A stretch of 64,000 nt of DNA from Umezawaea endophytica (lineage in GTDB: Bacteria; Actinomycetota; Actinomycetes; Mycobacteriales; Pseudonocardiaceae): contig NZ_JANYMP010000022.1 of the NCBI RefSeq assembly GCF_025061645.1, positions 86,072 to 150,071 on the forward strand, written 5' to 3'. Shown in pieces: positions 10,349-62,536 of the stretch. Each line of letters begins with the position of its first letter. The first letter of the stretch is position 1. The position numbers and the translations under genes are program-made. Under the pieces are notes generated by a model. The model worked only from the letters and a program-made list of their open reading frames with translations. It was not told the origin of the DNA and did no database searches.

Positions 10349-10355
10349 CGCCCAA

Positions 10356-10389
10356 CCGGCGCCCGCCCCGACCTCGGGACGGGCGCCGG
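10356..10389. terminator. Hairpin between convergent genes
   Basis: CCGGCGCCCG at 10356-10365 pairs perfectly with 10380-10389, and the pairing continues inward with one mismatch. It lies between the exported protein gene and the ferritin gene and can serve both. Confidence 0.65.
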
Positions 10390-10419
10390 CCGCAGGCGCT
10401 CAGGTGGGCGGGTGGAACG

Positions 10420-10977: not shown

Positions 10978-11013
10978 GCTGCGACGGTAACCCAATGGTG
11001 GTAAGAATGCATT

Positions 11014-11032
11014 GCAGGTAAGGCTACTGTTC
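11014..11032 (-). promoter_or_regulatory. IdeR/DmdR-like iron box, promoter-proximal copy at ferritin
   Basis: Core AGGTAAGGCTA; about 13 of 19 positions fit the recalled consensus TWAGGTWAGSCTWACCTWA. It lies 37-55 nt upstream of the ferritin start. Weaker than the distal copy. Confidence 0.45.
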
Positions 11033-11053
11033 GTTTGGCGAGGTTATCCAAAC

Positions 11054-11072
11054 AAAGCTTAGGCAAACCTAC
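11054..11072 (-). promoter_or_regulatory. IdeR/DmdR-like iron box, distal copy at ferritin
   Basis: Core TTAGGCAAACCTA; about 15 of 19 positions fit the IdeR consensus. It is 77-95 nt upstream of the ferritin start, a distance that suits activation rather than repression, as described for M. tuberculosis bfrB. Confidence 0.6.
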
Positions 11073-11094
11073 GAATCACCTCGGACAAACGTTT

Positions 11095-11140
11095 GCGCGC
11101 GGTGTGGACCGAATGTCGCAATGCGATCCGCACCGCGCGC
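11095..11140 (-). terminator. Hairpin terminator after the arginine deiminase gene
   Basis: 14-bp arms GCGCGCGGTGTGGA and TCCGCACCGCGCGC with one mismatch, immediately downstream of the stop at 11154 on the minus strand. It separates arginine deiminase transcription from the ferritin control region. Confidence 0.65.
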
Positions 11141-11153
11141 TGTGATGACGATC

Positions 11154-12401: not shown

Positions 12402-12540
12402 ATTTCGGAGGGTAACCCGTTCGCGAAGAAATAATCTGCGCCAAGTGGCCCAGATTGCGTGAAGTCGATCGTAAGAACGCCTGCAAGTAGTGAATTGTTC
12501 AGCAGATCGGGGTTTGGGCAAGCGAATCGTTGTTCGAGTG

Positions 12541-48157: not shown

Positions 48158-49288
48158 ATGTCCGACACCATCGCTTTGGGTCAACCCACCGTCGGCGCGG
48201 AAGAGCTCGCGGCCGTCGCCGCGGTCTTCGAGACAGGCTGGCTCTCCGGGGCCGGACCGACCTGCGCGAAGTTCGAAGAGCGGTTCGCCGAGGTCGCCGG
48301 GGCCGAGCACGTGCTCGCCACGAACAACTGCGGCGCGGCGCTGCACCTGGCCCTCGAGGTCGCAGGCGTCCAGCCGGGTGACGAGGTCATCGTCGGCGAC
48401 TACACGTTCCCGGCGACCGGTCACTCGGTGATGTGGGCAGGCGCGAAGCCCGTCTTCGCCGACGTGCGCCCGGACATCTGGAGCGTCGACCCGGCCGCCG
48501 TCGAGGCGGCCATCACGCCGAAGACCGTCGGCATCCTCGCCGTCGACGTGTTCGGCCAGCCCGCCGACTACGACGAGCTGCGCGCCATCGCCGACAAGCA
48601 CGGCCTGTTCCTCATCGAGGACGGCGCCTGCTCATCCGGCGCGAGCTACAAGGGCAGGCCCGCGGGCGGGCTCGCCGACGCGGCCACCTTCAGCTTCCAC
48701 GGCCGCAAGGGCATCACCGCCGGTGAAGGCGGTGCGCTGACCACGAACAACGCGGAGTGGGCCGCCAAGGCCCGCAAGCTGCACACCTACGGCATCGAGC
48801 CCGCGCTCAGCCGCGAGGGCGCGCGCGAGCTGCCCGTGCCGTCGTTCGACGTCGCCGGCTACAACTACCGGATGTCGGACGTCATGGCGGGCATCATGCT
48901 CGCCCAGCTCGACCGGCTCCCGACGCTGCTCGCGAACCGCGCCCGCGCGGCCAAGGGCTACCAGGAGCTGCTCGACGGCGTCGACGGCCTGACCCTGCCG
49001 GTCGAGCTGCCCGACCGGGTCCACCCGTGGCAGTCCTACGTGGTGACCCTCGACCCGTCCGTCGACCGCGGCGAGGTCGCCATCCGCCTGCGCGAGCGCG
49101 GAGTGCAGTGCAACTTCGGCACGTACGCCTCGCACGTCCAGCCGGTCTACGGCCAGACCACGCCGTGCCCGGTGTCGGCGGACCTGTTCCGCAGGCACCT
49201 GGCGATCCCGATGCACGCCAACCTGACCGACGACCAGGTGGAGCGAGTCGCCAAGACGCTCCGCGAGGTGCTCAGCGAAGTCCGCTGA
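48158..49288 (+). CDS. DegT/DnrJ/EryC1-family PLP aminotransferase (first copy)
   Basis: 376 aa sugar aminotransferase. PLP Lys184 is in FSFHGRKGITAGEGG, the pyridine-N Asp is Asp155 in LIEDGA, and the stacking region is TNNCGAALHLAL near 55. It transfers an amino group from Glu or Gln to a keto-sugar nucleotide. It is followed by an NAD epimerase after 50 bp, so the two probably prepare one sugar nucleotide. GGAG lies 8 nt before ATG 48158, and a -10-like TAGACT lies near 48125. Confidence 0.9.
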   Translation: MSDTIALGQPTVGAEELAAVAAVFETGWLSGAGPTCAKFEERFAEVAGAEHVLATNNCGAALHLALEVAGVQPGDEVIVGDYTFPATGHSVMWAGAKPVFADVRPDIWSVDPAAVEAAITPKTVGILAVDVFGQPADYDELRAIADKHGLFLIEDGACSSGASYKGRPAGGLADAATFSFHGRKGITAGEGGALTTNNAEWAAKARKLHTYGIEPALSREGARELPVPSFDVAGYNYRMSDVMAGIMLAQLDRLPTLLANRARAAKGYQELLDGVDGLTLPVELPDRVHPWQSYVVTLDPSVDRGEVAIRLRERGVQCNFGTYASHVQPVYGQTTPCPVSADLFRRHLAIPMHANLTDDQVERVAKTLREVLSEVR

Positions 49289-49338
49289 GCGTTCACCCAG
49301 CACGTACCCGAGAGCCTCGACCACAGGAGTCACCCCGC

Positions 49339-50280
49339 ATGTCCTCGTCCCAGCGCACGGTCTTCGTCACCGGTGGAGCCGGATTCATCGGCATGCACGT
49401 CGTGCCGATGCTGCTCGAACGCGACTACAAGGTCCGCATCTTCGACAACATGTTCCGCGGTGACCGCGACAAGGTCGCCGAGCTGGTCGCGACCGGCAAC
49501 GTCGAGCTGATCGACCAGGACGTCCGCTACGGCGGCGCGGTGCAGAACGCGATGAAGGGCTGCGAGAGCGTCATCCACCTCGCCGCGGTCTCCATCAACA
49601 AGAGCGTCTCGGACCCGTACGAGAGCGTCGACATCAACATGGTCGGCAACCACAACGTGTTCGCCGCCGCCGCCGACCAGGGTGTGCGCAGGCTCGTGTA
49701 CGCGTCGTCCGCCTCGGTCTACGGCGACCCGAAGAAGCTGCCGATGCACGAGGACGACGAGCTGGCGCCGCTCACGCCGTACTGCATCGCCAAGCGCTCC
49801 GGTGAGGACCTGCTCGGCTTCTACGAGCGCACCAAGGGCCTGTCCTGGGTCGGCCTGCGCTTCTTCAACGTCTACGGCCCCGGCCAGAAGACCACCGCGT
49901 ACTACACCTCGGTGATCAACCACTTCGTGAACCGCCTGCGCCAGGGCCTGCCGCCGGTCATCGACGGCAAGGGCGAGCAGTCGATGGACTTCATCCACGT
50001 GACGGACATCGCCCGCTCGGTCGTCGCGGCGCTGGAGTCGGAGAAGGCCAACGTGCCGGTCAACATCGGCACCGGCATCGACACCACGGTCGCGGACCTG
50101 GCCAAGATCCTGATCAACGCCGTCGGCGTGGACGTCGAGCCGACGTTCAACCCGCGCGACGTGCTCGTGTCCCGCCGCGCGGCGGACATCACCCGTGCCA
50201 AGGAGGTGCTCGGCTGGGAGCCCACCATCTCGGTCGAGGACGGCATGAACGAGCTCGTCAAGCTCACCGCCACCACCTGA
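49339..50280 (+). CDS. NAD-dependent sugar-nucleotide epimerase/dehydratase
   Basis: 313 aa extended SDR. GGAGFIG at 12-18 binds NAD, ASSASVYG near 122 supplies the catalytic Ser, and Tyr148 with Lys152 (PYCIAK) complete the triad. FFNVYGPGQ and SMDFIHVTDIA are the usual substrate-side signatures. The protein resembles UDP-glucose/UDP-GlcNAc 4-epimerases, but the exact substrate cannot be read. AGGAG precedes ATG 49339. A hairpin terminator follows, so it closes a two-gene unit. Confidence 0.9.
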   Translation: MSSSQRTVFVTGGAGFIGMHVVPMLLERDYKVRIFDNMFRGDRDKVAELVATGNVELIDQDVRYGGAVQNAMKGCESVIHLAAVSINKSVSDPYESVDINMVGNHNVFAAAADQGVRRLVYASSASVYGDPKKLPMHEDDELAPLTPYCIAKRSGEDLLGFYERTKGLSWVGLRFFNVYGPGQKTTAYYTSVINHFVNRLRQGLPPVIDGKGEQSMDFIHVTDIARSVVAALESEKANVPVNIGTGIDTTVADLAKILINAVGVDVEPTFNPRDVLVSRRAADITRAKEVLGWEPTISVEDGMNELVKLTATT

Positions 50281-50350: not shown

Positions 50351-51550
50351 GTGCGCATCGCGGTAGTGAACAACTTCTTCCCGCCGAGGGTCGGGGGCAG
50401 CGCGCACCTCGCCTCGGCGCTCGCCGAGAGGTTCGTCCGGCAGGGGCACGAGGTGGTGCTCCTCACCGCCGCGTACCACGACGCGCCCGCCGAAGAGGTC
50501 GTCCGGGGCTACCGCGTGCACCGGCTGCCCGCGTTCGGCATGCCGCAGCTCGGCCTGTCGATCGACTTCGACATCACCTTCACCACCCGGCCGAGCAATC
50601 TGCGCCGGGTGTTCCGCGTCCTCGATGAGTTCCGGCCGGACGTCATCCACCAGCACGGCCAGTTCCTCGACCTGAGCTGGCTGACCGGCTGGTACGCCCG
50701 CAAGCGCGGGATCCCCGTGCTGCTGTCGGTGCACACGAGGCTGGAGAGCCGGAACAGGGCCTACTCGCTGCTGTTCCGCGCGCTCGACCGGTTCCTCGTC
50801 CGGCCGCTGATCGGGTTGGCCCGTCCCCGCTTCGTGATCATGGACGAGCTCGCGGCCACCTACTGCGCGGCGCGGTACGGCGCGGGCGAGGAGCGCTTCG
50901 AGCACATCCCGGTCGCGGTCGACCCCGAGTGGTGCGCGCAGCCGCCGACCAGGGACGTGCGGGCCGAGCTGGGCATCGGGACCGGGCCGCTGGTCGTGTC
51001 GCTGGGGCACGTGATCCCGCTGCGCGACCGGACGGCACTGGTCGACGCGATGCCGGGCGTGCTCGCCGAACACCCCGACACCAAGGTGCTCGTCGTCGGC
51101 CACCAGTACTACGACGCGTACCTGCGCCGGGCGGAACGGCTCGGGGTGGCGCACGCGTTCCTCAGCACCGGCGCCGTGCCAAGGGCGGACGTGCCCTCCT
51201 ACCTGGCCGCTGCCGACGTCGTCGCCCACGACCTCCAGGGCATAGGCTGTGGCACAGCGAGCCTGGAGGCGATGGCCGCCGGTAGGGCGACCATCTGCGC
51301 CGTGCGCGAGACCAACTTCCCCGGTGTCGAGCTGCGCAACTGGGACAACGCCGTGCTGGTCCGGCCGGACCACACCGAGGACCTCGTCACCGCGCTGAAC
51401 AGGTTGCTGGCCGACCCCGAGGAGCGGAGGCGGATCGCGTGCAGGCAGCGCGCCGTGGTGCTGGACGGGTTCACGCTGGACACGGTGACCCGCAAGCACC
51501 TCGACGTGTTCGAGTTGATGTCCGCTTCGACCCCGGCAGGGAAGCACTGA
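50351..51550 (+). CDS. Glycosyltransferase, GT4 family
   Basis: 399 aa, GT-B fold. N-terminal NNFFPPRVGGSAHLASALAE is the typical GT4 acceptor-domain opening. HQHGQFLDLSWLTG lies near 97. The donor domain has SLGHVIPLRDRTALVDA near 217, and the E..A..AGRATICAVRETNFPGVE segment near 312 holds the nucleotide-sugar-binding region. It probably adds the first or a later sugar to a lipid or polymer carrier at the cytoplasmic face. Its stop abuts the acyltransferase start (TGAATG), so the two are coupled. Confidence 0.88.
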   Translation: MRIAVVNNFFPPRVGGSAHLASALAERFVRQGHEVVLLTAAYHDAPAEEVVRGYRVHRLPAFGMPQLGLSIDFDITFTTRPSNLRRVFRVLDEFRPDVIHQHGQFLDLSWLTGWYARKRGIPVLLSVHTRLESRNRAYSLLFRALDRFLVRPLIGLARPRFVIMDELAATYCAARYGAGEERFEHIPVAVDPEWCAQPPTRDVRAELGIGTGPLVVSLGHVIPLRDRTALVDAMPGVLAEHPDTKVLVVGHQYYDAYLRRAERLGVAHAFLSTGAVPRADVPSYLAAADVVAHDLQGIGCGTASLEAMAAGRATICAVRETNFPGVELRNWDNAVLVRPDHTEDLVTALNRLLADPEERRRIACRQRAVVLDGFTLDTVTRKHLDVFELMSASTPAGKH

Positions 51551-52177
51551 ATGTTCTTCGACGACGAGCGCAGCAACCGGCTCCGGCCGCACATCCTGAC
51601 CGAGCTGGTCGGCCAGTTCATGAACGACCAGGAGCGGGCGAAGCTGTTCGGCCTTCCCGAGACGACCCGCATCCGCGAGCGCGCGAAGGTGATCAGCCCG
51701 GACCGCCTCAAGATCGGTGACCACTGCTGGATCGGCGAGGGCGCCGTGCTCGACGCCAGCGGCGGCATGGAGATCGGCGAGCACACCAGCATCGGGCTCA
51801 ACTGCCTGGTCTTCACGCACTCGAGCTGGCTCGCGAACATGATGCTGGAGAACCACTCGGGCACCGACCTGATCGAGCGCAAGCCGGTCCGCATCGGCAA
51901 GGGCTGCTTCATCGGCGGCAACAGCGTGATCATGCCCGGCGTGACGATCGGCGACTTCGCCACCGTGCAGCCGCTGTCGGTCGTGGCCAAGGACGTGCCC
52001 GAGCGCAGCCTGGTCGCGGGCAACCCGGCCAGGGTGTTCCAGCGCTACGACGACGAGTACATCCAGGGCGAGGCCGAGCGGGTGCGCGCGGAGAACAAGC
52101 GCCGCCGCGAGCTGGCCGAGGAACGCGGCGAGACCGTCGTCTGGGGAGCGCCCGCGGGCGAGTTCGACAAGCCCTGA
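51551..52177 (+). CDS. Left-handed beta-helix acyltransferase (hexapeptide family)
   Basis: 208 aa. Hexapeptide repeats run from about 55 to 165 (IGDHCWIGEGAVLDASG, IGEHTSIGLNCLVFTHSS, IGKGCFIGGNSVIMPGVTIGDFATV), with the catalytic His in FTHSS near 95 and the VAGNPARVF closing signature. It O- or N-acetylates a sugar, or transfers another acyl group, as a trimer. A Glu/Arg-rich C-terminal helix follows. Its position next to the GT and two DegT genes suggests it finishes an aminosugar. Confidence 0.87.
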   Translation: MFFDDERSNRLRPHILTELVGQFMNDQERAKLFGLPETTRIRERAKVISPDRLKIGDHCWIGEGAVLDASGGMEIGEHTSIGLNCLVFTHSSWLANMMLENHSGTDLIERKPVRIGKGCFIGGNSVIMPGVTIGDFATVQPLSVVAKDVPERSLVAGNPARVFQRYDDEYIQGEAERVRAENKRRRELAEERGETVVWGAPAGEFDKP

Positions 52178-52225: not shown

Positions 52226-54292
52226 CTAGACGATCGCGGCGTCGAGCGCGTTCTTCAGCACCAGCGACGACGTGGCGTCCAGCGCCAGCGACCCGTTGAA
52301 CGCGATGGAGCCGGTGCTGAACACCCAGCCGCCGCCCGGCCGGGTGAACTGGATCATCTCGGCGCCGTTGTCCCCGCCGCTGTTCTGCCCGACGGCGATG
52401 AGCTGGGCGCCGGGAGGGGACGGCACCGGCCTGCGGTCGACCTCCCACCCGCTGGCCGCCAGGTTGTACGACTGCGCGCCGAAGGTGTCGTTGTTCACCA
52501 GCCCGCTGCCGGCGAGGAACGGGTGCGCGGTGTTCGCCACCCGGTACGGGGCGAACGTCATGAACTCCGACCCGTCCCAGTCCGACCCGAGCACGGCCGA
52601 GGTCGGCTGCCCCAGGTTCGCGAACCACATCGGCTCGCGCAGCCCGCTCGTCGTGCGGAAGACCACCGAGTCGCCGTTCGCCGACCAGGACACCTTCTCG
52701 AACATCGTGTTCCCGCCGGTGGCGATCACGTGCCCGCCCGCGCCGAGGTAGGTGTTCACCCGGTCCTTCATCGTCTGCGACCAGTACTCCGCGTGGCTGC
52801 CGAGCACCAGCGCCTTGTACTGCCCGAGCCAGGTGCCGTCGGCGTCCAGGTCACCGTCCTGGTAGCAGTCGAACGAGTACCCCTTGGTGACCAGCCAGCG
52901 CAGCAGCAGTTGGTCCGAGTAGAACGTGTGGCTGAGGTTCGCCCGGTCGTCGGTCCACACGCTGTCGCTCGGCCGCAGCGACGCGATCGTCCGCTGCACC
53001 CCGGACTGGCCCGCGCTGCTGTACGCGTTGTGGCCCGCCCAGGTGTTGTAGGCGTTGTAGGTGTTGGTCGGCAGCATGACCGCGATCGGCGACGACGGCG
53101 CGGTCGGCTTCACCGCGAACGGGATGTCGAACCGGAGGTGCTGCACGCCGTTCAGCACCCCGCGCAGCCTGCACACGTACACCCCGGACCGCCACGTCGC
53201 CGGGATGGTGAGCGAGAAGTCCGGGGTCCAGCCGCAGCCGGTCGCCCGGTAGCCGCCGGGCAGCGGCTGGAGGCGGCCGGGCTGGCTGACCGGGCCCCAC
53301 ACGACGGTGCCCGGCGACTGCCCGCTCACGGCCAGCCGCTCGATGGTCGCCTCGACCGTGGTGAACGTGCTGGAGACCGGGAAGCCCTGGGTGTAGCCGG
53401 GGCGCGGGCTCAGGTCGTTCGCGTACCCCTGGAGCGCGGCCGTCGACTCGACGGAGAACCCGGCGCCGATCTGGAGCGGCGCGCCGACGTTGACCCAGGC
53501 GCCCGTCCAGTCACCGTTGATGGTCTCCGAGTTGACCAGCCGGAACCAGTTCAGCTTGTCGTCGTAGCCGGGTGTGGTCGCGGTGTCCAGCCACACCAGG
53601 TAGACCGTGCCCGCGGTGTTGGAGAACCAGGACTTGTTGGCGTCGTCGGAGAACCCGCTGCCGATCACCCATGGTTGACCGCCGTTGGTCCACGCGCCGA
53701 CGCCGTTGGTGCCGTCGCCCGCCAGGTAGCGCCACCAGTACAGGAGGTTCCCGCCCTGCGCGATGCCGAAGATCACGCCGTTCGGGTCGGCGAACACCGC
53801 GTAGTACTGCTTCCAGCCGCCGCTGATCACGGCGGCGCTGTTGGCGTGCCAGGCGCCCGCCCCGTTGGTGCCGTTGCCCGCCAGGTAGCGGAACCAGTGC
53901 AGGTTGCCGCTGGTGTCGATGGCGTAGAAGACGCCGTTCCACCCGCCGAAGATCCGCGGGTACGCCTGGAGCCCGGTGCGGATCACCGACCCGCTCGCCG
54001 CGTGCCAGGTCCCCGCCCCGGTGTTCGGATCGGTGAGCTGGTACTTGTACCAGCGCATGGACCCGTCCTCGCCGATCGCGAAGAGCTGGCCGTCCGCGGC
54101 GGCCAGCACGGTCTTGAACTGCTGCCACCCGCTGCCGATCGCGAGCCCGCCGCCGTTGCTCCACGACGCCGCGCCGGTCTGCCAACCCGAGTGCCGGTAC
54201 CACAGCAGGACCCCGTCGGCCTGGATCGCGTAGACGATCCCGGTACCCCCCGGTACGAGCCGGACGAAGCGTTGATTTTGGTCGTATGCCAC
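52226..54292 (-). CDS. Tachylectin-like propeller fused to an N,N-dimethylformamidase beta-subunit-like domain
   Basis: 688 aa. The N-terminal ~240 residues are five repeats of a tachylectin-2-type propeller (blades with VYAIQADGVLLWYRH, LFAIGEDGSMRWYKY, FYAIDTSGNLHWFRY, IFGIAQGGNLLYWWRY), spaced about 47 residues. The C-terminal ~430 residues resemble the DmfA2 C-terminal fold (LPTNTYNAYNTWAG, LVLGSHAEYWS, VIATGGNTMFEKV). GTG 54292 is preferred because of the Shine-Dalgarno just upstream. From that start there is no signal peptide, unusual for a lectin. It might bind sugars made by the surrounding locus. Confidence 0.68.
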   Translation of the reverse strand: MAYDQNQRFVRLVPGGTGIVYAIQADGVLLWYRHSGWQTGAASWSNGGGLAIGSGWQQFKTVLAAADGQLFAIGEDGSMRWYKYQLTDPNTGAGTWHAASGSVIRTGLQAYPRIFGGWNGVFYAIDTSGNLHWFRYLAGNGTNGAGAWHANSAAVISGGWKQYYAVFADPNGVIFGIAQGGNLLYWWRYLAGDGTNGVGAWTNGGQPWVIGSGFSDDANKSWFSNTAGTVYLVWLDTATTPGYDDKLNWFRLVNSETINGDWTGAWVNVGAPLQIGAGFSVESTAALQGYANDLSPRPGYTQGFPVSSTFTTVEATIERLAVSGQSPGTVVWGPVSQPGRLQPLPGGYRATGCGWTPDFSLTIPATWRSGVYVCRLRGVLNGVQHLRFDIPFAVKPTAPSSPIAVMLPTNTYNAYNTWAGHNAYSSAGQSGVQRTIASLRPSDSVWTDDRANLSHTFYSDQLLLRWLVTKGYSFDCYQDGDLDADGTWLGQYKALVLGSHAEYWSQTMKDRVNTYLGAGGHVIATGGNTMFEKVSWSANGDSVVFRTTSGLREPMWFANLGQPTSAVLGSDWDGSEFMTFAPYRVANTAHPFLAGSGLVNNDTFGAQSYNLAASGWEVDRRPVPSPPGAQLIAVGQNSGGDNGAEMIQFTRPGGGWVFSTGSIAFNGSLALDATSSLVLKNALDAAIV

Positions 54293-54297
54293 GGTGA

Positions 54298-54308
54298 ACC
54301 CCTCCCCT
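54298..54308 (-). promoter_or_regulatory. Shine-Dalgarno deciding the lectin-protein start
   Basis: AGGGGAGGGGT on the minus strand lies 5 nt before GTG 54292. The next upstream start would begin inside the terminator at 54367-54405. Confidence 0.6.
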
Positions 54309-54366
54309 TGATACGTGGGATGTATCGCCAAGGGGACGTTTGCTGTGACATGGATCACCTGAATGG

Positions 54367-54405
54367 CGCAGGGGGTGTGCTCCGTGACGGAGCACACCCC
54401 CTGCG
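54367..54405 (-). terminator. Very strong hairpin terminator of the Gfo/Idh-DegT operon
   Basis: A perfect 17-bp stem (CGCAGGGGGTGTGCTCC with its complement) closes a 5-nt loop (GTGAC), 13 bp after the Gfo/Idh stop. The longest perfect stem in the window; no T-tract, as common in high-GC actinobacteria. Confidence 0.8.
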
Positions 54406-54418: not shown

Positions 54419-55399
54419 TCAGACGCCCGCGGGGGCGGCCTTCCTGTTCTCGAACACCTGCGCCACCACGCGGTGGGACGGCAGGATCGCGTCGCGCTCC
54501 TCGTCCGCGTCGACCGTTCCGGCCAGGATGTCCAGGAACCGGTCGAGCTGGGCGGCGAGCGGCTCGCGCGCCGAGACCAGCTCGGGGATCTCGATGATCG
54601 ACTGCTGGCGGTAGCCGCGGCCGTCCGGCGTCGCGGCGTCGTTCGACACGTGCCGGTAGATGGTCACGTCCCGGCGCAGCAGGTCGGCCTCGATCAGCCG
54701 GTCCAGCTCGGTGATCACCAGCGACCGGACCTTGCGCTGGCCGACCCGGCTCGCGGACACCGTCGCCAGGCCGCCGCCGTCGAACCGCAGCACGGTCTCG
54801 GCGATGTCCTCGGCGTCGTCGACCGACGTCGGGTGGAAGTAGCCGAAGCTGCCCTGCACGCTGACCGGGTCGACCCCGCCGAACGTGCGGATCGCCAGGT
54901 CGACGTCGTGCACCAGGAGGTCCCACGAGACGCCGGTGCGGATCCGCGGCGCGTACGGCGAGTGCCGCGTGGCCGCCACGTGCACCGGGCTGTCGACCAG
55001 CGACAGCGCCGTCAGCACGGCCGGGTTGTAGCGCTCCAGCAGACCGCACATCAACGGGATGCCGCGCTCGGCGGAGATCCGGACGACCTCCTCGCTGGCG
55101 GCCAGGCCGTCGCACACCGGCTTCTCGACCAGCAGCGGCTTGTCCTGCGCCAGCACGTCCAGCGCCAGGCCGTGGTGGAACTCGGTCGCCGAGGCGAGCA
55201 CGACCGCGTCGACGTCGGACAGGTCGCCGATCTCCGGCGACCAGGAGGCGTTGAACCGGTCCGCGACCGAACGCCCGACCTCCTCGCGCGGCTCGGCCAC
55301 GCGGACCAGGTCGCAGCGGTCGGACTGGGACAGCACGCGGGCGTGCAGCGAGCCCATCGTGCCGGTCCCGACGAGCAGGATCCGAGGACGTGCGGTCAC
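54419..55399 (-). CDS. Gfo/Idh/MocA-family oxidoreductase
   Basis: 326 aa. NAD loop GTGTMGSLH at about 12-20, the EKPVCDG motif (EKP Lys) near 91, and HDVDLAI near 167 with the family His. It probably oxidises a hydroxyl of a sugar nucleotide (as WbpB-like enzymes do at C3) ahead of the coupled DegT aminotransferase. The GTG overlaps the DegT stop as GTGA. The pair, with the hexapeptide acyltransferase at 51551, gives the oxidation, amination and acylation set used for 3-acylamino sugars (inference). Confidence 0.85.
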   Translation of the reverse strand: MTARPRILLVGTGTMGSLHARVLSQSDRCDLVRVAEPREEVGRSVADRFNASWSPEIGDLSDVDAVVLASATEFHHGLALDVLAQDKPLLVEKPVCDGLAASEEVVRISAERGIPLMCGLLERYNPAVLTALSLVDSPVHVAATRHSPYAPRIRTGVSWDLLVHDVDLAIRTFGGVDPVSVQGSFGYFHPTSVDDAEDIAETVLRFDGGGLATVSASRVGQRKVRSLVITELDRLIEADLLRRDVTIYRHVSNDAATPDGRGYRQQSIIEIPELVSAREPLAAQLDRFLDILAGTVDADEERDAILPSHRVVAQVFENRKAAPAGV

Positions 55400-56493
55400 G
55401 CGCCCAACACCTCCCGGATGGTGCCGACGATGGTGGCGAGCTCGTCGTCGGTCAGACCCGCGTGCACGGGGATCGACAGGCACTGCTCGGTGACGCGCTT
55501 GGCCACCGGCGTCTCGGACGCGATGACGTTCGGGTTGTCCTGGTAGCAGGCGTAGTCCGTGACCAGCTTCGGGTAGTAGATCCCGTTGCCGATGCCGCGC
55601 TCGGTCAGCTTGGCCGAGAACTCGTCGCGGGTGAGCGCCGCGTCCGCGGTCAGCAGCACGGTGTACTGGTGCCACACGTGCGAACGGCCCGCCAGCTCGG
55701 TCGGCGTGACCAGGCCGGGCACGCCCGCGAGGCCCTCGGACAGGGTCGCGGCGTTCGCCTTGCGCTTCGCGGTGATCTGCTCGATCTTCGCGAGCTGCGG
55801 GATGGCGACCGCGGCCTGGAGGTCGGTGAGGCGGTAGTTGTGGCCCGCCATCACGTACTCGTAGCGCTGCCTCATGCCCTGGTTGCGCAGGATCCGCAGC
55901 TTCTCGTTGACGGCGTCGTCATCGGTCGTGATGATGCCGCCCTCGCCGGTGGTGATGTTCTTCGTCGCGTAGAACGAGAAGCAGCCGAGGCCGAAGCTGC
56001 CCGCCGGACGCCCGTCGAACTTCGCGCCGTGGGCCTGCGCCGCGTCCTCGACGAGCGCGAGGCCGCGCTCCTCGGCGAGCGGGGCGATCTTGCCCATGTC
56101 GGCGGTCTGCCCGTACAGGTGGACCGGCATGAGGACCTTGGTCCGGGGCCCGATGGCGTCCGCCATCGCGTCCGGGTCCACGCAGAAGTCGTCCTCGCGG
56201 ATGTCCGCGAAACGCGCGGTGGCGCCCGCCTCCAGGATCGCGTTGAGGGTCGCGATGAAGGTGAACGGCGAGGTCACGACCTCATCACCCGGTCGCAGGT
56301 CCAGCGCCTGGATCGCGGCCACCAGCGCCGTGGTGCCGTTGTTCACGGCGACCGCGTGCTTCACGCCCGAGATCTCGGCGAAGGTGTCCTCGAAACGCTT
56401 CACCATCGGGCCCTGGGCGATGACTCCCGAGCGGAGCACTTCGAGCACGTACGGCTCCGCGTCGCGCACGTCGACAACGGTGATTGGGATCAT
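55396..56493 (-). CDS. DegT/DnrJ/EryC1-family PLP aminotransferase (second copy)
   Basis: 365 aa. PLP Lys178 is in FSFYATKNITTGEGG, Asp150 in LVEDAAQAHGA, and NNGTTALVAAIQAL lies near 51. The protein is nearer to WbpE-like 3-aminosugar enzymes than to the first DegT copy (inference from motif similarity). ATG 56493 starts MIPITVVDVR; five extra upstream residues from 56508 are possible. The 295-bp gap to the acyl carrier protein gene holds two palindromes and divergent promoters. Confidence 0.9.
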   Translation of the reverse strand: MIPITVVDVRDAEPYVLEVLRSGVIAQGPMVKRFEDTFAEISGVKHAVAVNNGTTALVAAIQALDLRPGDEVVTSPFTFIATLNAILEAGATARFADIREDDFCVDPDAMADAIGPRTKVLMPVHLYGQTADMGKIAPLAEERGLALVEDAAQAHGAKFDGRPAGSFGLGCFSFYATKNITTGEGGIITTDDDAVNEKLRILRNQGMRQRYEYVMAGHNYRLTDLQAAVAIPQLAKIEQITAKRKANAATLSEGLAGVPGLVTPTELAGRSHVWHQYTVLLTADAALTRDEFSAKLTERGIGNGIYYPKLVTDYACYQDNPNVIASETPVAKRVTEQCLSIPVHAGLTDDELATIVGTIREVLGA

Positions 56494-56528
56494 TCTCCGT
56501 CTTCCCATCGGGCGGGGCCGCGTGGAGA

Positions 56529-56788: not shown

Positions 56789-57028
56789 ATGGACTTGCAG
56801 CAACGGCTGCGCAGCACCTTCGTCGAAGCCCTCGGGCTCGGTGAGGGCGTCGACGTCGAGAACCTGAAGTACCGCGAGATCGAGGAGTGGGACTCGGTCG
56901 GCCACATGGCGCTGGTCGCGGCGATCGAGGACGAGTTCGACGTCCAGTTCGACACCGACCAGGTCATCGACATGAGCAGCTTCAAGGTCGCGCTCGACAT
57001 GCTGCGGGTACTGGGTGCCGGTGACTGA
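56789..57028 (+). CDS. Acyl carrier protein
   Basis: 79 aa, acidic four-helix carrier. The phosphopantetheine attachment Ser36 is in EEWDSVGHMALV. Helix II (VGHMALVAAIEDEF) is typical. It is the first gene of a coupled run (ACP, SDR, AMP ligase, LuxE-like, LuxC-like), so it probably carries the acyl chain on which those enzymes act, separate from the primary fatty-acid ACP. GGGAGAA precedes ATG 56789. No ketosynthase gene is in the window. Confidence 0.9.
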   Translation: MDLQQRLRSTFVEALGLGEGVDVENLKYREIEEWDSVGHMALVAAIEDEFDVQFDTDQVIDMSSFKVALDMLRVLGAGD

Positions 57029-57779
57029 CGCGCGGATCGACCTGTCCGGCCGGGTGGCGGTCGTCACCGGCGGCACCCGCGGCATCGGGCTGGCCACGGC
57101 GGACGCGCTCGCCGCGTCCGGCGCGACCGTCGTGCTGACCGGGCGGGACGAGGCCGTGGCGAAGCAGCGCGCGGGCGAGCTGGCCGAACGGCACGGGGCC
57201 GCGGTCAGCGGCCTGGCGCTGGACGTCACCGACCCGACCGCGGTCAAGGACGTGTTCCGGGCCATCGCGAAGGAGCACGGGCGCGTCGACGCGCTCGTCG
57301 CCAGCGCCGGTGTGCTGGAGGGCGCGCTGATCGGGATGATCGGCGACGACCACGTCGACCGGATGCTCGCCACGAACGTCAGCGGCACCATCGCGACCGT
57401 GCAGGCCGCGGCGCGCGCCATGATGCGCAAGAAGACCGGGTCGATCGTGCTGCTCGCGTCGATCGTCGGCGAGCGCGGCAACGCGGGCCAGCTCGTGTAC
57501 GCGGCCACCAAGGCCGCGGTCGCGAGCATCGCCAGGTCGTCGGCGAAGGAGCTGGGCCGCTACGGCATCCGGGTCAACGCCGTGGCCCCCGGCGTGATCA
57601 AGACCGACCTCACCGCAGGGCAGTCCGACGACGTGCTCGACCGGGTCGTCAAGGACACCGCGCTGAGCAGGCTCGGCGAAGCCGACGAGGTCGCGCGGGT
57701 GATCCGCTTCCTGGTCAGCGACGAGGCGTCGTTCGTGACCGGCCAGGTGCTCGGCGTCGACGGGGGGCTCGTGCTGTGA
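57021..57779 (+). CDS. FabG-like short-chain dehydrogenase/reductase
   Basis: 252 aa classical SDR. TGGTRGIG (16-23) binds NADPH; catalytic Ser147, Tyr160 and Lys164 (YAATK) are intact; VNAVAPG near 182 and GVDGGLVL at the end are FabG-like. It probably reduces a 3-keto (or another keto) group on the chain bound to the ACP encoded just upstream, whose gene it overlaps by 8 bp. GTG 57021 is preferred; GTG 57015 is in frame. Its stop overlaps the next start by one codon (GTGA). Confidence 0.88.
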   Translation: MTDARIDLSGRVAVVTGGTRGIGLATADALAASGATVVLTGRDEAVAKQRAGELAERHGAAVSGLALDVTDPTAVKDVFRAIAKEHGRVDALVASAGVLEGALIGMIGDDHVDRMLATNVSGTIATVQAAARAMMRKKTGSIVLLASIVGERGNAGQLVYAATKAAVASIARSSAKELGRYGIRVNAVAPGVIKTDLTAGQSDDVLDRVVKDTALSRLGEADEVARVIRFLVSDEASFVTGQVLGVDGGLVL

Positions 57780-59179
57780 GCCTGCTCGGCGACGGCGCTC
57801 GGCTGGTCGACGCGGCGGACGGCACGGAACTGGCGGGCGAGGACCTGCGCACGCGGGTCGCCGGGCTGGCCGCCGAGCTGTCCGCGCTGCCCGTCGGCGT
57901 GGTGTTCGCGCGCACGGCCGTCGACGTGCCGAGCGTGCTGCGCTACCTCGGCGCGTTCACCGCGGGCCGCCCGGTCGCGCTGCTGGACGCGGGCCAGGAC
58001 CGCGAGGTGCTGCTGGCGCTGGTCGCGGCCTTCCGCCCGGCCGCCGTGCTGGGCGCCGACGGGGACGCGCCGGACGGCTACCGGCCCGGCGAGGTCGGCG
58101 GACCGGCCTGGGTGCGCGAGGCCGCCGACGGCGTGGAGCCGCACCCGGACCTCGCCGTGCTGCTGCCCACGAGCGGGTCCACCGGCAACCCCAAGTTCGT
58201 CCGGCTGTCCAGGGCGGCCGTGCTGAGCAACGCCGAGGCCATCGCCGAGGTGCTCGACGTCGACGCCGCCGAGGTCGCCCCGACCAGCCTGCCGCTGCAC
58301 TACAGCTACGGCATGTCGGTGCTGAACAGCCACCTGCTGCGCGGCGCGACCGTGGTCGTCGAGGCCACCGGCGTGATGGGCAGGCCGTTCTGGCAGGCCG
58401 TGGCCGACCACAAGATCACGTCGCTGGCGGGCGTCCCGTACCACTACGAGATGCTCAAGCGCCTGCGCTTCGACCCGGCCAAGTACCCCAGCCTGCGCAC
58501 GATCACGCAGGCGGGCGGCAAGCTGCGCGAGGACCTGGTCACCGAGTTCAACGACAAGATGGTCGCGGCGGGCGGGCGGATGTTCGTCATGTACGGCCAG
58601 ACCGAGGCCGCGCCCCGGATGGCCACCGTGCCCGCCGGGAAGCTGGCCGAGAAGCTCGGGTCCGCCGGCCCCGCCCTCCCCGGTGGCGCGTTCGCCATCC
58701 GCACCGAGGACGGTGCCGAGACGACCGAGCCGGGCGTCGTGGGCGAGGTGCTCTACCGCGGGCCGAACGTGATGATGGGCTACGCGGAGTCGGAGGCCGA
58801 GCTGGCCGACGGCGACTCGCGCGGCGGCGTGCTGGAGACCGGCGACCTCGGCAGGCTCGACGAGGACGGCTACCTGTTCATCACCGGCAGGCTCAAGCGC
58901 ATCGGCAAGGTGTTCGGCAACCGCGTCAACCTCGACGACCTGGAACAACTGGTGCGGGCCTCGGGGTTGGACACCGGTGTGGTCGCCGCGGTGCCCGCGG
59001 GCGACAAGGTCGTCGTCTGGCTGGAGGACCGCGGTGCCGACACGCGCAAGGCGGTCGCCCGCGAACTCGCGGAGAGGCTGCACATGCACGTGTCCGGATT
59101 CGACGTGCGGGAGGTCGACGCCCTGCCCCTGCTCGCCAGCGGCAAGGTCGACTACCGCTCCCTGGAGGGACGGGCGTGA
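57776..59179 (+). CDS. AMP-forming acyl ligase (ANL superfamily)
   Basis: 467 aa, shorter than most acyl-CoA synthetases, with a reduced N-terminal domain. A3 loop TSGSTGNPK at 132-140, YGQTEA near 280 (A5), the ETGDLG (A7) and GRLKRIGKVFGNRVN (A8) motifs, and catalytic Lys457 in ASGKVDY (A10). It activates a carboxylic acid as an acyl adenylate; the natural acceptor is probably the linked ACP. GTG overlaps the SDR stop as GTGA, and it overlaps LuxE-like in the same way. Confidence 0.87.
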   Translation: MSLLGDGARLVDAADGTELAGEDLRTRVAGLAAELSALPVGVVFARTAVDVPSVLRYLGAFTAGRPVALLDAGQDREVLLALVAAFRPAAVLGADGDAPDGYRPGEVGGPAWVREAADGVEPHPDLAVLLPTSGSTGNPKFVRLSRAAVLSNAEAIAEVLDVDAAEVAPTSLPLHYSYGMSVLNSHLLRGATVVVEATGVMGRPFWQAVADHKITSLAGVPYHYEMLKRLRFDPAKYPSLRTITQAGGKLREDLVTEFNDKMVAAGGRMFVMYGQTEAAPRMATVPAGKLAEKLGSAGPALPGGAFAIRTEDGAETTEPGVVGEVLYRGPNVMMGYAESEAELADGDSRGGVLETGDLGRLDEDGYLFITGRLKRIGKVFGNRVNLDDLEQLVRASGLDTGVVAAVPAGDKVVVWLEDRGADTRKAVARELAERLHMHVSGFDVREVDALPLLASGKVDYRSLEGRA

Positions 59180-60243
59180 CAGCGATCGTTGAGGGTGTTT
59201 TCGGATTGGGCCAGTCCGAGCGCGAGGCGGCGCTGCTGCCCGCGCTGACGGAGCTGACCGAGCACCACCGGGCGCACTGCGAGCCGTACGACCGGATCCT
59301 CGGCTCGCTGGGCCACGCCCGCGGCGCCGACTTCGGGTCCGTCGAGCAGGTGCCGTGGCTGCCGGTGCGGATGTTCAAGCACCACGTGCTCAAGAGCGTG
59401 CCGGACGACCAGGTCTTCAAGGTCCTGACCTCGTCCGGCACCACCGGCGCCGAGGTGTCCCGGATCTACCTGGACAAGGAGGCCGCGGCCGACCAGCCCC
59501 GGTACCTGGGTCGCACGCTGCAAGCCGTGCTCGGCGAGAAGCGGCTGCCGATGCTGATGGTCGACACCATCGGCATCATCAAGAACCGGCGCTCGTTCTC
59601 CGCCCGCGGCGCGGGCGTGCTGGGCATGGCGAACTTCGGCCGCAAGCACGTCTACGCGCTCGACGAGGACGACCAGCCGGACGTCGAGGCCATCAAGGGC
59701 TTCCTGGCCGCGCACGGCGACGAGCCGTTCCTGATCTTCGGCTTCACCTTCATGGTGTGGCAGTACCTCTACGAGGTCGCCCGCGAGCACCGGCTCGACC
59801 TGTCCAACGGCATCCTGATCCACTCGGGCGGCTGGAAGAAGCTGATCGACCGCGCGGTCGACAACACCGAGTTCCGGCGCCGATTCGCGCAGGACACCGG
59901 GTTGACCCGGATCCACAACTACTACGGCATGGTCGAGCAACTGGGCACCGTGTTCGTCGAGGGGCCGTCCGGGAACTCGCTGTACTGCCCGGACTTCGCC
60001 GACGTCGTCATCCGCGACCCGGAGACCTGGGCCGAGCAGCCGGTGGGCGTGCCGGGGGTGATCGAGGTGGTCAGCACGGTGCCGCGCTCCTACCCCGGCC
60101 ACGCGCTGCTGACCGAGGACCTCGGCGTGGTGCACGGGATCGACGACGGCGACTGGCCGGGCAAGCGCTTCTCCGTGCTCGGCAGGCTGCCGCGCGCCGA
60201 GGCCCGCGGGTGTTCGGACACGTTCAGCGGAGGAGCGGCGTGA
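59176..60243 (+). CDS. LuxE-like acyl-protein synthetase
   Basis: 355 aa, LuxE family. Nucleotide loop TSSGTTG at 85-91, the conserved HSGGWKKL near 217, and YYGMVEQ near 254. A C-terminal Cys346 in RGCSDTF is positioned like the acyl-accepting Cys near the C-terminus of Vibrio LuxE. LuxE activates a fatty acid with ATP and hands it to LuxC via this Cys. No luxA or luxB is here, so light production is excluded. GTGA overlaps at both ends. Confidence 0.87.
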   Translation: MTAIVEGVFGLGQSEREAALLPALTELTEHHRAHCEPYDRILGSLGHARGADFGSVEQVPWLPVRMFKHHVLKSVPDDQVFKVLTSSGTTGAEVSRIYLDKEAAADQPRYLGRTLQAVLGEKRLPMLMVDTIGIIKNRRSFSARGAGVLGMANFGRKHVYALDEDDQPDVEAIKGFLAAHGDEPFLIFGFTFMVWQYLYEVAREHRLDLSNGILIHSGGWKKLIDRAVDNTEFRRRFAQDTGLTRIHNYYGMVEQLGTVFVEGPSGNSLYCPDFADVVIRDPETWAEQPVGVPGVIEVVSTVPRSYPGHALLTEDLGVVHGIDDGDWPGKRFSVLGRLPRAEARGCSDTFSGGAA

Positions 60244-61472
60244 GCAAGGTCCAGCAGCGTTTCCCGGCCGGGCCGGACGTCGAGGTCGACACCCTCGTCG
60301 CCGAGCTGTCCGGCGAGCCCGCGGGCGGCAGGCTGAAGGTCGGCGACGAGCGGGTCGTGGACTTCCTGGTGAAGTTCGCGCGCAAGCTGCTCGCGCCCGC
60401 GACCGCGCGGCGCTACCCGGAACTCGCCTCGCTCGGGTTCTTCCTGCGCCGGGGCGAGATCGCCAAGGCGCTGTCCACGATGGAGACCAGGGGTGACGCG
60501 CTGAGGTTCCCGCGCGGCCTCGTCTTCCACGTGCCACCGGCCAACGTGGACACCATCTTCGTCTACTCGTGGGCGCTGTCCGCGCTGGCGGGCAACCCCA
60601 ACGTGGTGCGCATCTCGTCCCGTTCGGCCGGTGCCGCGGAGACCGTGATCGAAGCCCTCAACGAGGCGCTCGCGGACGCGCACCCGATCATCGCGGAGAC
60701 CCAGCGCATGGTCACCTACGGCCGCGACGACGCGGTGACCGCCGCGCTGTCGGCCGCGTGCGAGCTGCGGGTGATCTGGGGCGGCGACCGGTCCGTTGCG
60801 GAGCTGCGCAAGCACCCGCTCGCGCCGAACGCCCGCGACCTCACCTTCCCCGACCGCGCGTCGTTCGCCGCGATCTCGGTGGCGGGCTGGCAGGCCGCGA
60901 CAGCCGAGCAGCGGCGCGACGCCGTGATCGGCTTCTACAACGACTCGTACTGGTTCGACCAGGCCGCCTGCTCGTCCCCGCGCACGCTGTTCTGGGTCGG
61001 CGACGACGCCGCCGCGCGGCTCGGCCGCGAGGAGTTCCGCGGCCTGCTGGGCGAAGTGGTGGCGAGCAAGAACTTCGTCGTCGAACCCGCGATGGCCGTG
61101 CAGAAGCGGGTGTCCGCCTACGGCGTCGCCGCGCAGGGCCACGCGACCGAGATCCGCTTCGACGGCAACGCCGTGGCGACCCTCGAACTCGCCGACCCGT
61201 CGGCCGTGCCGAGGGAGTGGCTCGGCGTCGGCACCTTCCCCCAGGCGGCGCTGACCAGCCTCGCCGAGTTCGCCGGGATCGTGCAGCGCAAGGACCAGAC
61301 GCTGAGCACGTTCGGCTTCTCCCGCGACGAGCTCGTCGACTTCGCGAACACCGTGGCGGGGCGCGGGATCGACCGGATCGTGCCGTTCGGGTCCGCCCTC
61401 AGCTTCGCCGCTGTCTGGGACGGCTACGATCTGCTGTCCGAGTTCAGCAGGCTCACCACGGTCAGCGTCTGA
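60240..61472 (+). CDS. LuxC-like acyl-thioester reductase
   Basis: 410 aa of the aldehyde-dehydrogenase-like LuxC family (PF05893). Catalytic Cys244 is in DQAACSSPR, as in Vibrio LuxC. NADPH-side motifs include VPPANVDTIF near 98 and GNPNVVRISSRSAG near 118. It reduces an acyl group passed from LuxE (or an ACP thioester) to an aldehyde. LuxC-LuxE pairs also occur from memory in O-antigen loci annotated RfbN. Start GTG 60240 overlaps the previous stop. Confidence 0.88.
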   Translation: MSKVQQRFPAGPDVEVDTLVAELSGEPAGGRLKVGDERVVDFLVKFARKLLAPATARRYPELASLGFFLRRGEIAKALSTMETRGDALRFPRGLVFHVPPANVDTIFVYSWALSALAGNPNVVRISSRSAGAAETVIEALNEALADAHPIIAETQRMVTYGRDDAVTAALSAACELRVIWGGDRSVAELRKHPLAPNARDLTFPDRASFAAISVAGWQAATAEQRRDAVIGFYNDSYWFDQAACSSPRTLFWVGDDAAARLGREEFRGLLGEVVASKNFVVEPAMAVQKRVSAYGVAAQGHATEIRFDGNAVATLELADPSAVPREWLGVGTFPQAALTSLAEFAGIVQRKDQTLSTFGFSRDELVDFANTVAGRGIDRIVPFGSALSFAAVWDGYDLLSEFSRLTTVSV

Positions 61473-61540
61473 GCCTGATGCCCGTGCCGCCGCAAGTCCC
61501 TGCCGCACATGGCAATACCAGCGACTCTCCTGGAGAGCAG

Positions 61541-62536
61541 ATGACGACCGCCGAAGCCGAGGTCCCAGCAACCGAGGCCGCCGCAGAGCAGAAGTCGACC
61601 AAGGCGTTGATCATCACCTGGGCCCGCAGGCTGTTGGTGGTCGTCGTGATCGCGTTCGCGGGCTACGCGCTGGTCACGAAGTGGAACGAGGTCTGGCACA
61701 CGCTGGCCGCCGTCGCCTGGCAGTCGAGCCTGCTCAGCCAGCTCGCCGTGATGGCGGCGATCCTGTTCAACACGATCGCCTGGCAGACCATCGTGGACGA
61801 CCTCGGCAAGCCGATCGGCATCTTCCGGGGCGCCCAGATCTGCCTCGTCGGCGGTCTCGGCAAGTACGTGCCGGGTTCGGTGTGGGCGTACCTGCTCCAG
61901 ATGGAACTCGGCCGCAAGGCGGGCCTGCCGCGCGCGCGGATCTTCACCGGCTCGCTGGTGCAACTCGGCATCGCGACGGTGGCGTCCCTGCTGCTCGGCA
62001 TCATCGCGCTGCCGGTGATCTTCGCGGAGACCCCGCAGGCGCTGTGGCTGTTCGCGCTGCTGCCGGTCGGTCTCGCCGCGCTGCACCCGAAGATCCTCAC
62101 CTGGGGCACCTCGCTGGTGCTCAAGACGTTGCGCCGCCCGCCGCTCGACCACCAGCTCAAGTGGTCGACCATCGGCAAGGTGCTCGGCTTCTCGCTGCTC
62201 GCGTACGCGGCCTTCGGCTCGCACATGTGGCTGTTGGCCAACTCGGTCGGCGCTCCCGGCGTGAGCGGCCTGCTGCTGTGCATCGGCGCCATGGCGATCA
62301 GCATGACCGCAGGCCTGTTCGCGTTCTTCCTGCCTTCGGGCGCGGGTGTCCGGGAGGCCGTCATCGTGGCCGTGCTGGCCGCCAGCGGCATCGACCCGGT
62401 GCAGGGCCTCGCGTTCGCGGTGGCGTCGCGGTTGATGTTCATCGTCGCCGACGTGGTCACCGCGGGCACGGCCGCCGCCATCGCGGCCTTCCGCCGCCGT
62501 ACCGCTCCGGGCGCACGGGCGCCGCAGGCGGCCTGA
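61541..62536 (+). CDS. Flippase-like integral membrane protein (LPG synthase TM / UPF0104 family)
   Basis: 331 aa with about eight TM helices starting at about 25. Family features: AWQTIVDDLG, GGLGKYVPGSVWAYLLQ near 105 (the central RxxGKYxPGxxW-like motif) and FLPSGAGVREAVI near 265. Members are found with O-antigen and teichoic-acid genes as putative lipid-linked sugar transporters. TGGAGAGCAG sits before ATG 61541. It is the last gene of the acyl-chain operon and is followed by a terminator. Confidence 0.82.
   Translation: MTTAEAEVPATEAAAEQKSTKALIITWARRLLVVVVIAFAGYALVTKWNEVWHTLAAVAWQSSLLSQLAVMAAILFNTIAWQTIVDDLGKPIGIFRGAQICLVGGLGKYVPGSVWAYLLQMELGRKAGLPRARIFTGSLVQLGIATVASLLLGIIALPVIFAETPQALWLFALLPVGLAALHPKILTWGTSLVLKTLRRPPLDHQLKWSTIGKVLGFSLLAYAAFGSHMWLLANSVGAPGVSGLLLCIGAMAISMTAGLFAFFLPSGAGVREAVIVAVLAASGIDPVQGLAFAVASRLMFIVADVVTAGTAAAIAAFRRRTAPGARAPQAA

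Follow-up and report, generated by a model that had tools for sequence, protein, structure and literature searches.

The question raised by this locus is what LuxE- and LuxC-like proteins do in an operon that lies among amino-sugar genes. The locus is part of a 64,000-nucleotide stretch (the window) of the 11.02-Mb genome of Umezawaea endophytica (C22:86072-150071), in which five consecutive genes are predicted to encode an acyl carrier protein (ACP), a short-chain dehydrogenase (SDR), an AMP-forming acid ligase, a LuxE-like protein, and a LuxC-like protein. A preliminary description of this DNA had read them as a candidate new pathway that releases a carrier-bound acyl chain as an aldehyde or alcohol. 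In the reading favored here, to which we give a probability of roughly 0.6, the cassette would supply the acyl group of an amino-sugar glycan, in the form of a small hydroxy-acid made by reduction of a dicarboxylate. Across relatives, the cassette behaves as a present/absent unit inside diaminosugar loci with GnnA-like, DegT, and LpxA-like genes, or lies among pseudaminic-acid genes, where a GNAT gene is frequent.

The coupling of the five genes was borne out from 56789 to 61472, with an overlap at each junction (4 bases at three junctions and 14 or 8 bases between the ACP and SDR genes). The operon range first given, 56789 to 62536, is correct for the five genes as far as 61472, and its end belongs to a sixth, uncounted gene for a PF03706 membrane protein (presumably flippase-like, a label taken from the preliminary description). 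The better start of the sixth gene is the ATG at 61541 behind a GGAG motif, 68 bases 3' of luxC, so this gene is not overlap-coupled to the cassette. Third-position G+C contents of 0.96 to 0.98 supported coding of the SDR, ligase, and LuxE genes. The SDR, AMP-binding, LuxE, and LuxC sequences passed Pfam cutoffs, with the ACP slightly under its own. Of 236 NCBIfam SDR models, the 25 listed all had cutoffs that the SDR did not reach, and the closest were FabG models. Predicted folds were obtained for LuxC and the ligase, and the single PDB match of the LuxE-like protein at an E value of 0.1 was the LuxE of 7xc6. Catalytic residues were intact, as previously noted, and the numbering Ser147/Tyr160/Lys164 given for the SDR fits the GTG start at 57021 (149/162/166 from the start at 57015). 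Compared with luminescence luxCDE, the operon is without LuxD and luciferase and has an added ACP, ligase, and SDR. LuxC (27.8 bits; cutoff, 750) and LuxE (56.1 bits; cutoff, 550) scored far below the NCBIfam luminescence equivalogs, and neither LuxD nor luciferase was found by Pfam scan among 20 open reading frames (ORFs) of the window (39.6 to 64 kb). Luminescence was rejected on these grounds.

Relatives were compared at 83 actinobacterial loci on 83 different contigs, the window's own excluded. These comprised the best 80 of at least 551 LuxE relatives from a contig scan, which are the most LuxE-like and biased toward close kin, and three loci (L016 to L018) from genome samples. All five genes occurred in the same order on one strand at 82 of the 83 loci, which rules out a chance neighborhood; the genes were also not scattered in relatives, the question that had earlier been put to comparative genomics. 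Invariant at all 83 loci were ACP Ser36 with Trp34, Asp35, and His39, the TSGSTG motif and Lys457 of the ligase, the SSGTTG motif and Cys346 of LuxE, and Cys244 of LuxC, and the Ser/Tyr/Lys residues of the SDR were kept at the 82 loci matched. A homologue of the PF03706 protein was present at 65 of the 83. A 200-genome sample of the family gave a fairer count than the 83-locus set, with LuxC and LpxA-like proteins scored on the best 9 to 14 candidates per genome, so that these counts may be low. LuxE was found in 40 of these genomes, an accessory distribution, and LuxC was found in the same 40. Orthologues of LuxE with at least 92% identity were present in all three genomes of the genus, and LuxE with at least 57% identity was present in 3 of 396 phylum-sample genomes (the window's own included; one further match, at 23% identity, was not counted). 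The accessory distribution disfavors a role in primary lipid metabolism, an objection foreseen in the preliminary description.

The same families were also found on plasmids of other bacteria. A Deinococcus plasmid keeps the five-gene order, and a Ponticoccus plasmid carries the ACP, SDR, ligase, and LuxE genes in order, with luxC separate and inverted. Of the 10 matching Rhizobium records, one plasmid was examined; there the families are arranged differently and are accompanied by two transketolase genes. On this plasmid (Rhizobium beringeri; L105:6329-8153), a split transketolase pair adjoins genes for a hexapeptide acyltransferase, ACP, ligase, LuxE, and LuxC, as in a Dickeya cluster, and the best match of the hexapeptide acyltransferase was of the NeuD/PglB type, below cutoff. 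Separately, a contig labeled Rhodococcus rhodnii NRRL B-16535 matched Kibdelosporangium aridum in layout and almost exactly in identities (L027 and L029), and the Rhodococcus record may be mislabeled or mixed.

The company of the cassette was scored at chosen identity thresholds (LpxA-like, 38%; GnnA-like, 37%; DegT2, 55%; PseB, 40%; and PseI, 35%). LpxA-like, GnnA-like, and DegT2 genes were all present at 59 of the 83 loci, GnnA-like and DegT2 genes only at 8, and LpxA-like genes only at 4; the rest had PseB or PseI (6 loci) or none of the five (6 loci). At these thresholds, the GnnA/LpxA type and the PseB/PseI type were found together at none of the 83 loci. The GnnA-like Gfo/Idh gene and DegT2 therefore stood beside the cassette at 67 loci, and some DegT gene was present at 80, with the window genome having 10 DegT genes in 11.02 Mb (about 0.02 expected per 21 kb). 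PseB of L096 (484.3 bits; cutoff, 407.75) and PseI of L099 (461.1 bits; cutoff, 340.25) exceeded NCBIfam cutoffs, and neither is part of the window's locus. LpxA-like genes were found at 63 loci and lay directly upstream of the ACP gene at 61 of them. Of the 20 loci that lack an LpxA-like gene, 8 had a GNAT family member, which was divergent and immediately upstream of the cassette at 7 and 4 kb downstream at L099; the GNAT domain was confirmed in both of the members scanned. A GNAT-like gene comes next after luxE in Ponticoccus, and a NeuD/PglB/VioB acyltransferase above its cutoff comes next after luxC in Deinococcus.

In the family sample, LpxA-like proteins were found in 37 of 40 LuxE-positive and 26 of 160 LuxE-negative genomes (Fisher P = 7e-20, uncorrected for kinship). 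By coordinates, the LpxA-like gene shares a contig with LuxE, at a distance of no more than 15 kb, in 36 of these 37 LuxE-positive genomes. Five of the 26 loci with an LpxA-like gene and no LuxE were compared (L107 to L111). GnnA-like, DegT2, and PF03706 genes were present without the cassette at L107, L109, and L110, and none of the three was detected at an E value of 1e-3 at L108 and L111. At L109, the LpxA-like gene runs directly into the PF03706 gene, a gap where the cassette sits in most relatives, and L110, also cassette free, was the nearest match to the window's own layout. All three family loci with LuxE and no LpxA-like gene (L112 to L114) were without a GnnA-like or DegT2 match. At two of these (L112 and L114, in genomes G454 and G505), the ligase, LuxE, and LuxC genes are present, the SDR is more distant, the ACP gave no match, and a methyltransferase-domain gene adjoins luxC, with a chorismate-binding enzyme 1 kb further on at L114; this trio is perhaps in a natural-product setting. 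In a FastTree phylogeny based on the ligase, LuxE, and LuxC (90 sequences; Rhizobium root by choice), 64 GnnA/LpxA-type members, including the window's, formed one clade (support, 0.93), 8 GnnA/LpxA-type Micromonosporaceae another (0.998), and 11 pseudaminic or unassigned loci a third (0.97).

Two neighbors resemble enzymes of the GnnA/GnnB/LpxA diaminosugar branch of lipid A synthesis. The best NCBIfam match of the Gfo/Idh protein was NF040723, UDP-N-acetylglucosamine (UDP-GlcNAc) 3-dehydrogenase (UDP-GlcNAcDh_Arch), at 124.5 bits (cutoff of 450 not reached), and its single PDB match at an E value of 1e-15 was 7bvj/7bvk, of which we take 7bvj to be a structure of GnnA. The LpxA-like protein reached 181 bits against NCBIfam LpxA (cutoff of 226 not reached) and 42.6 bits against PF13720, the LpxA C-terminal domain (cutoff, 24.5), and its catalytic His was kept in all 63 proteins. 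Besides the missed cutoffs, the differences from that branch are a Gram-positive host and the NQDLK loop of Escherichia coli LpxA, which is not conserved; the papers on GnnA, GnnB, and LpxA that a search retrieved deal, by their titles and opening abstract lines, with Gram-negative lipopolysaccharide (LPS). The nearest families, UDP-GlcNAc 3-dehydrogenases for the Gfo/Idh protein and LpxA for the LpxA-like protein, both matched below NCBIfam cutoffs, make a 3-amino sugar the probable acceptor. The position of E. coli Gly173, which we take to be the acyl-chain-length ruler of LpxA, is Met in 57 and Leu in 6 of the 63 LpxA-like proteins, which disfavors a long acyl chain.

The gene set itself has precedents, and the earlier wording of a candidate new pathway is too strong: the same five-gene set is described in Aeromonas and a similar one in Enterobacteriaceae and Dickeya, and a tetronate pathway was proposed earlier for Vibrio cholerae O1. 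The tetronate proposal is reportedly that of Morona et al. in 1995, known through citing papers. RfbM of this pathway is presumably an iron-type alcohol dehydrogenase and RfbO an acetyltransferase. In the pathway proposed for V. cholerae O1, a carrier, an AMP-ligase, and a LuxE-domain protein encoded in one amino-sugar O-antigen locus (rfbKLMNO / wbe, VC0248-VC0252) serve the N-acylation of perosamine with 2,4-dihydroxybutanoate. The product there is 3-deoxy-L-glycero-tetronate borne by an amino sugar. A paper describing a luxE-homologue mutant of Riemerella notes that V. cholerae RfbN has a LuxE domain and refers to the 1995 tetronate proposal. The ligases have 471 (WbeL of V. cholerae) and 467 (Umezawaea) amino acids; the acceptor in V. 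cholerae is perosamine, whereas in Umezawaea the setting is GnnA-like/DegT/LpxA-like and Gram positive. Judged from sequence, the Umezawaea cassette has the small carrier and LuxE and LuxC family members with active-site Cys. Its AMP-ligase has intact motifs and would be a candidate for activating the hydroxy-acid. Candidates for the place of RfbO would be the LpxA-like protein, at 63 of 83 loci, and the GNAT protein, at 8 of the other 20; in the window's genome, the LpxA-like gene is 3.3 kb from luxC.

Flagellin glycosylation islands offer a second comparison. Group II islands, found in 98 Aeromonas strains, hold genes for an ACP, a 3-oxoacyl-ACP reductase, and an AMP synthetase (orf1-orf3), followed by luxE and luxC, beside pse genes, and the authors guessed at a "liposugar" (PMC7874193). 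The five families and their listed order are those of the window and of the 82 loci; the likeness is one of family names and listed order, and the Aeromonas genes belong to a Gram-negative flagellin glycan. Islands of Dickeya and of Enterobacteriaceae carry acpP, fabG, fadD, luxE, and aldH/luxC. In Dickeya these are clustered with vioA and an acetyltransferase gene, and there is an additional transketolase pair and a second fabG. These and the preceding comparisons draw on passages of PMC7874193, PMC4875605, PMC7575072, PMC4772473, PMC3441752, PMC12208996, and PMC4691044; PMC7371886, PMC9290775, and PMC11420230 contributed nothing. A literature search returned nothing on dihydroxybutanoyl groups with pseudaminic acid, on Actinoplanes teichulosonic acids, or on tetronate genes with an alcohol dehydrogenase. 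The finding is a known gene set of putative chemistry in a new, broad actinobacterial setting, and no claim is made that the LpxA-like proteins or the cassette had gone unreported in actinobacteria.

What was observed is gene content, gene order, conserved residues, predicted folds, and recurring company; from these we infer each chemical step, the identities of acid and sugar, the acyltransferase that acts with the cassette, and the glycan that results. LuxE would activate a small dicarboxylic acid, with malate as the model, at one of its carboxyls, giving an acyl-AMP, and take the acyl group onto its Cys; LuxC would receive it on its own Cys and reduce it with a nicotinamide cofactor to a semialdehyde, and the SDR would convert the semialdehyde to an alcohol. 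The AMP-ligase would then activate the remaining carboxyl of the hydroxy-acid (e.g., 2,4-dihydroxybutanoate, "tetronate") and load it on the ACP, from which a sugar acyltransferase would transfer the hydroxyacyl group to a nucleotide amino sugar, at its amino group. This acyltransferase would be the LpxA-like protein in the window's lineage and probably the GNAT protein in the pseudaminic-acid lineage. The amino sugar here is probably a 2,3-diaminosugar from the GnnA-like Gfo/Idh protein and DegT2, and the GT4 and PF03706 proteins would bring it into a surface glycan. LuxE, LuxC, and the SDR are read as reducing one carboxyl of a dicarboxylate because the set resembles the V. cholerae tetronate pathway, and a two-carboxyl substrate would make sense of the presence of two acid-activating enzymes (the ligase and LuxE). 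Such a scheme would use all five proteins, fit the V. cholerae precedent, and account for the sugar acyltransferase gene often found next to the ACP gene. The preliminary description was thus right, as far as sequence can tell, that the locus encodes enzymes for loading a carrier-bound acyl group and for LuxE/LuxC carboxyl reduction in an amino-sugar locus, and attachment of the product to an amino sugar is probable. As for acyl-aldehyde or alcohol release, the capacity for reduction is retained, and the aldehyde probably serves as an intermediate rather than as the end product.

A medium- or long-chain acyl group on the ACP, from which LuxE and LuxC would make a fatty aldehyde (or an alcohol, if the SDR takes part) as the lipid part of a glycolipid, is unlikely. 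The LuxC and LuxE families do use fatty acids in luminescence, fatty-acid ligases are among the best fold matches of the ligase model, and a "liposugar" was also suggested by the Aeromonas and Enterobacteriaceae authors. The operon, however, is without a ketosynthase, a thioesterase (LuxD), or a desaturase; one fatty chain hardly explains two acid-activating enzymes; LuxC and LuxE are far under the luminescence cutoffs; the cassette is often paired with sugar acyltransferases; and in the only precedent whose product is known, that product is a C4 hydroxy-acid. A further point in favor of the glycolipid is the gene for a luciferase-like monooxygenase (PF00296, 145 bits; L008:12392-13360) 4.8 kb past luxC, beyond other genes and outside the window, so that the earlier statement that luciferase is absent holds for the window proteins scanned and not for this neighbor; the PF00296 family, however, is broad, and the cassette-free locus L110 has a gene similar by eye. 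The cluster of this gene recurs in 18 of 84 clustered loci. The fatty-aldehyde glycolipid was set aside as the leading reading on the evidence of the two activators, the cutoffs, the acyltransferase pairing, and the C4 precedent.

Even less probable is a supply of 3-hydroxyacyl-ACP, with the ligase loading a 3-keto acid, the SDR acting as FabG, and the LpxA-like protein transferring the product to the 3-amino group, while LuxE and LuxC form a separate aldehyde branch or serve as nonreducing carriers. LpxA enzymes use 3-hydroxyacyl-ACP, and the SDR is closest to FabG models. The SDR, LuxE, and LuxC genes, however, stand in one operon at 82 of 83 loci, with LuxC Cys244 and LuxE Cys346 invariant, which favors one linear pathway with true reduction. 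That the aldehyde itself is the product, forming an imine with the amino sugar for reduction by the SDR or Gfo/Idh protein to an N-alkyl sugar, or reacting with a ketol donor by way of the Rhizobium and Dickeya transketolase pair, is very improbable. The transketolase genes that adjoin the cassette on the single Rhizobium plasmid examined and in Dickeya are consistent with it, as is the lack of an acyltransferase gene inside the window's operon itself. Against it, no transketolase was found among the actinobacterial neighbor proteins scanned, the ACP and ligase would not be needed, and acyltransferase genes are often neighbors.

Several findings weigh against the dicarboxylate reading of an acyl-supply module. 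The dehydrogenase in the operon is an SDR, in contrast to the iron-type enzyme RfbM of V. cholerae; for this reason, the cassette is classed as working like the tetronate pathway and not as a member of it. Its link to V. cholerae RfbK-O and Aeromonas orf1-luxC runs through gene families named in papers, not sequences. The FabG-like SDR could equally serve a 3-ketoacyl-ACP, the fold matches of the ligase do not separate small-acid from aromatic- or fatty-acid ligases, the luciferase-like gene lies beyond luxC, and one locus, L100, is without the SDR gene. A GNAT gene is absent too from 12 of the 20 LpxA-free loci (at 8 of these 12, the hexapeptide gene of the window has a homologue), and no acyltransferase was found at L073, L091, L092, and L096. 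The window genome's own LpxA-like gene (C22:150794-151513) lies 0.7 kb outside the window and 3.3 kb past luxC and is not ACP adjacent. Its product is only 42 to 51% identical to the ACP-upstream proteins and closer by identity to those of L107 and L110, and its nearer kin (65 to 84%) also occur in cassette-free genomes. Met at the ruler position was likewise found in four of five LpxA-like proteins from cassette-free loci, with Ala in the fifth, so the ruler residue does not track the cassette. In the tree, the clade of 64 joins the pseudaminic clade (support, 1.0) before the 8 Micromonosporaceae; from this order, each lineage keeps one setting, yet the GnnA/LpxA setting is not a single cassette lineage. 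Lastly, passages on Aeromonas AH-3 flagellin report an unknown 102-Da mass plus a 376.14-Da pseudaminic acid derivative, and the masses computed for C4H6O3 and for pseudaminic acid with acetyl and C4H6O3 are 102.03 and 376.15, respectively; this match was given little weight because a 376-Da sugar ion is also reported for AH-1 flagellin.

The flanking genes named in the preliminary description (two DegT genes and genes for an epimerase, a GT4 protein, an acyltransferase, here a hexapeptide-repeat transferase, and a Gfo/Idh protein) were confirmed (Table 1). Past the window, the contig encodes an LGFP-repeat protein, the LpxA-like protein, a HAD hydrolase, the luciferase-like monooxygenase, a PIG-L-domain protein, a GT2 protein, and a GtrA protein. 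A 723-amino-acid protein with tachylectin and DMFA2_C domains is encoded amid the sugar genes (52226-54397, minus strand), with clear same-place homologues at L023 and L024 and a weaker one at L025. A FAD-dependent oxidoreductase of the DAO family (46864-48057, minus strand) lies at the locus edge, and its cluster recurs in 15 of 84 clustered loci. The same genome has a second, different LuxE/LuxC locus (L117; G000:C16:212000-231900, 4988-12488, minus strand) with genes for a GNAT protein, LuxE, a LuxC-AMP-binding fusion, another AMP-binding protein, and a lysine/ornithine N-monooxygenase. A trio similar to that of L117 was found on a Salmonella plasmid (L115, 9821-14698), encoding an acyl-protein synthase, an 802-amino-acid AMP-binding protein, and a phenylacetate-CoA-ligase-like protein.

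Table 1. Genes of the cassette and its surroundings, with positions in the window
Feature	Position	Strand	Support
DegT-family sugar aminotransferase DegT1	48158..49288	+	PF01041 348 bits
NAD-dependent sugar epimerase/dehydratase	49355..50280 (start approximate)	+	PF01370 178 bits; domain from ~residue 200 of ORF 48757-50280
GT4-type glycosyltransferase	50351..51550	+	PF13439 and PF00534
Hexapeptide-repeat transferase	51551..52177	+	PF00132 46.8 bits
Gfo/Idh oxidoreductase, GnnA-like (UDP-GlcNAc 3-dehydrogenase type)	54419..55399	-	Best NCBIfam NF040723
DegT-family sugar aminotransferase DegT2, divergent from operon	55396..56508	-	PF01041 396 bits
ACP, 79 aa, carrier Ser36 in WDSVGH	56789..57028	+	PF00550 20.0 bits, cutoff 20.8 (slightly below)
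SDR, FabG-like, putative semialdehyde/ketone reductase	57015..57779 (alternative GTG 57021)	+	PF13561 215 bits
AMP-forming acid ligase, 467 aa, putative hydroxy-acid--ACP ligase	57776..59179	+	Pfam above cutoff
LuxE-like acyl-protein synthetase, acyl-acceptor Cys346	59176..60243	+	PF04443 146 bits
LuxC-like acyl-protein reductase, Cys244	60240..61472	+	Pfam above cutoff
PF03706 ("Lysylphosphatidylglycerol synthase TM region") membrane protein, putative role	61541..62536	+	57.4 bits; GGAG/ATG start

A broader proposal can be put forward tentatively, at less than even odds: that many actinobacteria, which lack LPS, carry out a lipid-A-like first step, in which a 2,3-diaminosugar nucleotide made by GnnA and DegT proteins would be N-acylated by the LpxA-like protein, with an exchangeable five-gene cassette setting the acyl group through a LuxE/LuxC-made short hydroxyacyl-ACP of the tetronyl type, and that the same cassette serves pseudaminic acid in a different lineage. 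If the favored reading holds, the LpxA-like proteins would act as acyl-ACP sugar acyltransferases in bacteria that make no lipid A, and the "fatty acid synthesis" label on these genes would be replaced. The V. cholerae tetronate genes, the flagellin "liposugar" genes, and the nonluminous luxE homologues would be united as one mobile module for carboxyl reduction and N-acylation, and a testable acyl decoration would be predicted for the surface glycans of Amycolatopsis, Lentzea, Saccharothrix, and many Micromonosporaceae.

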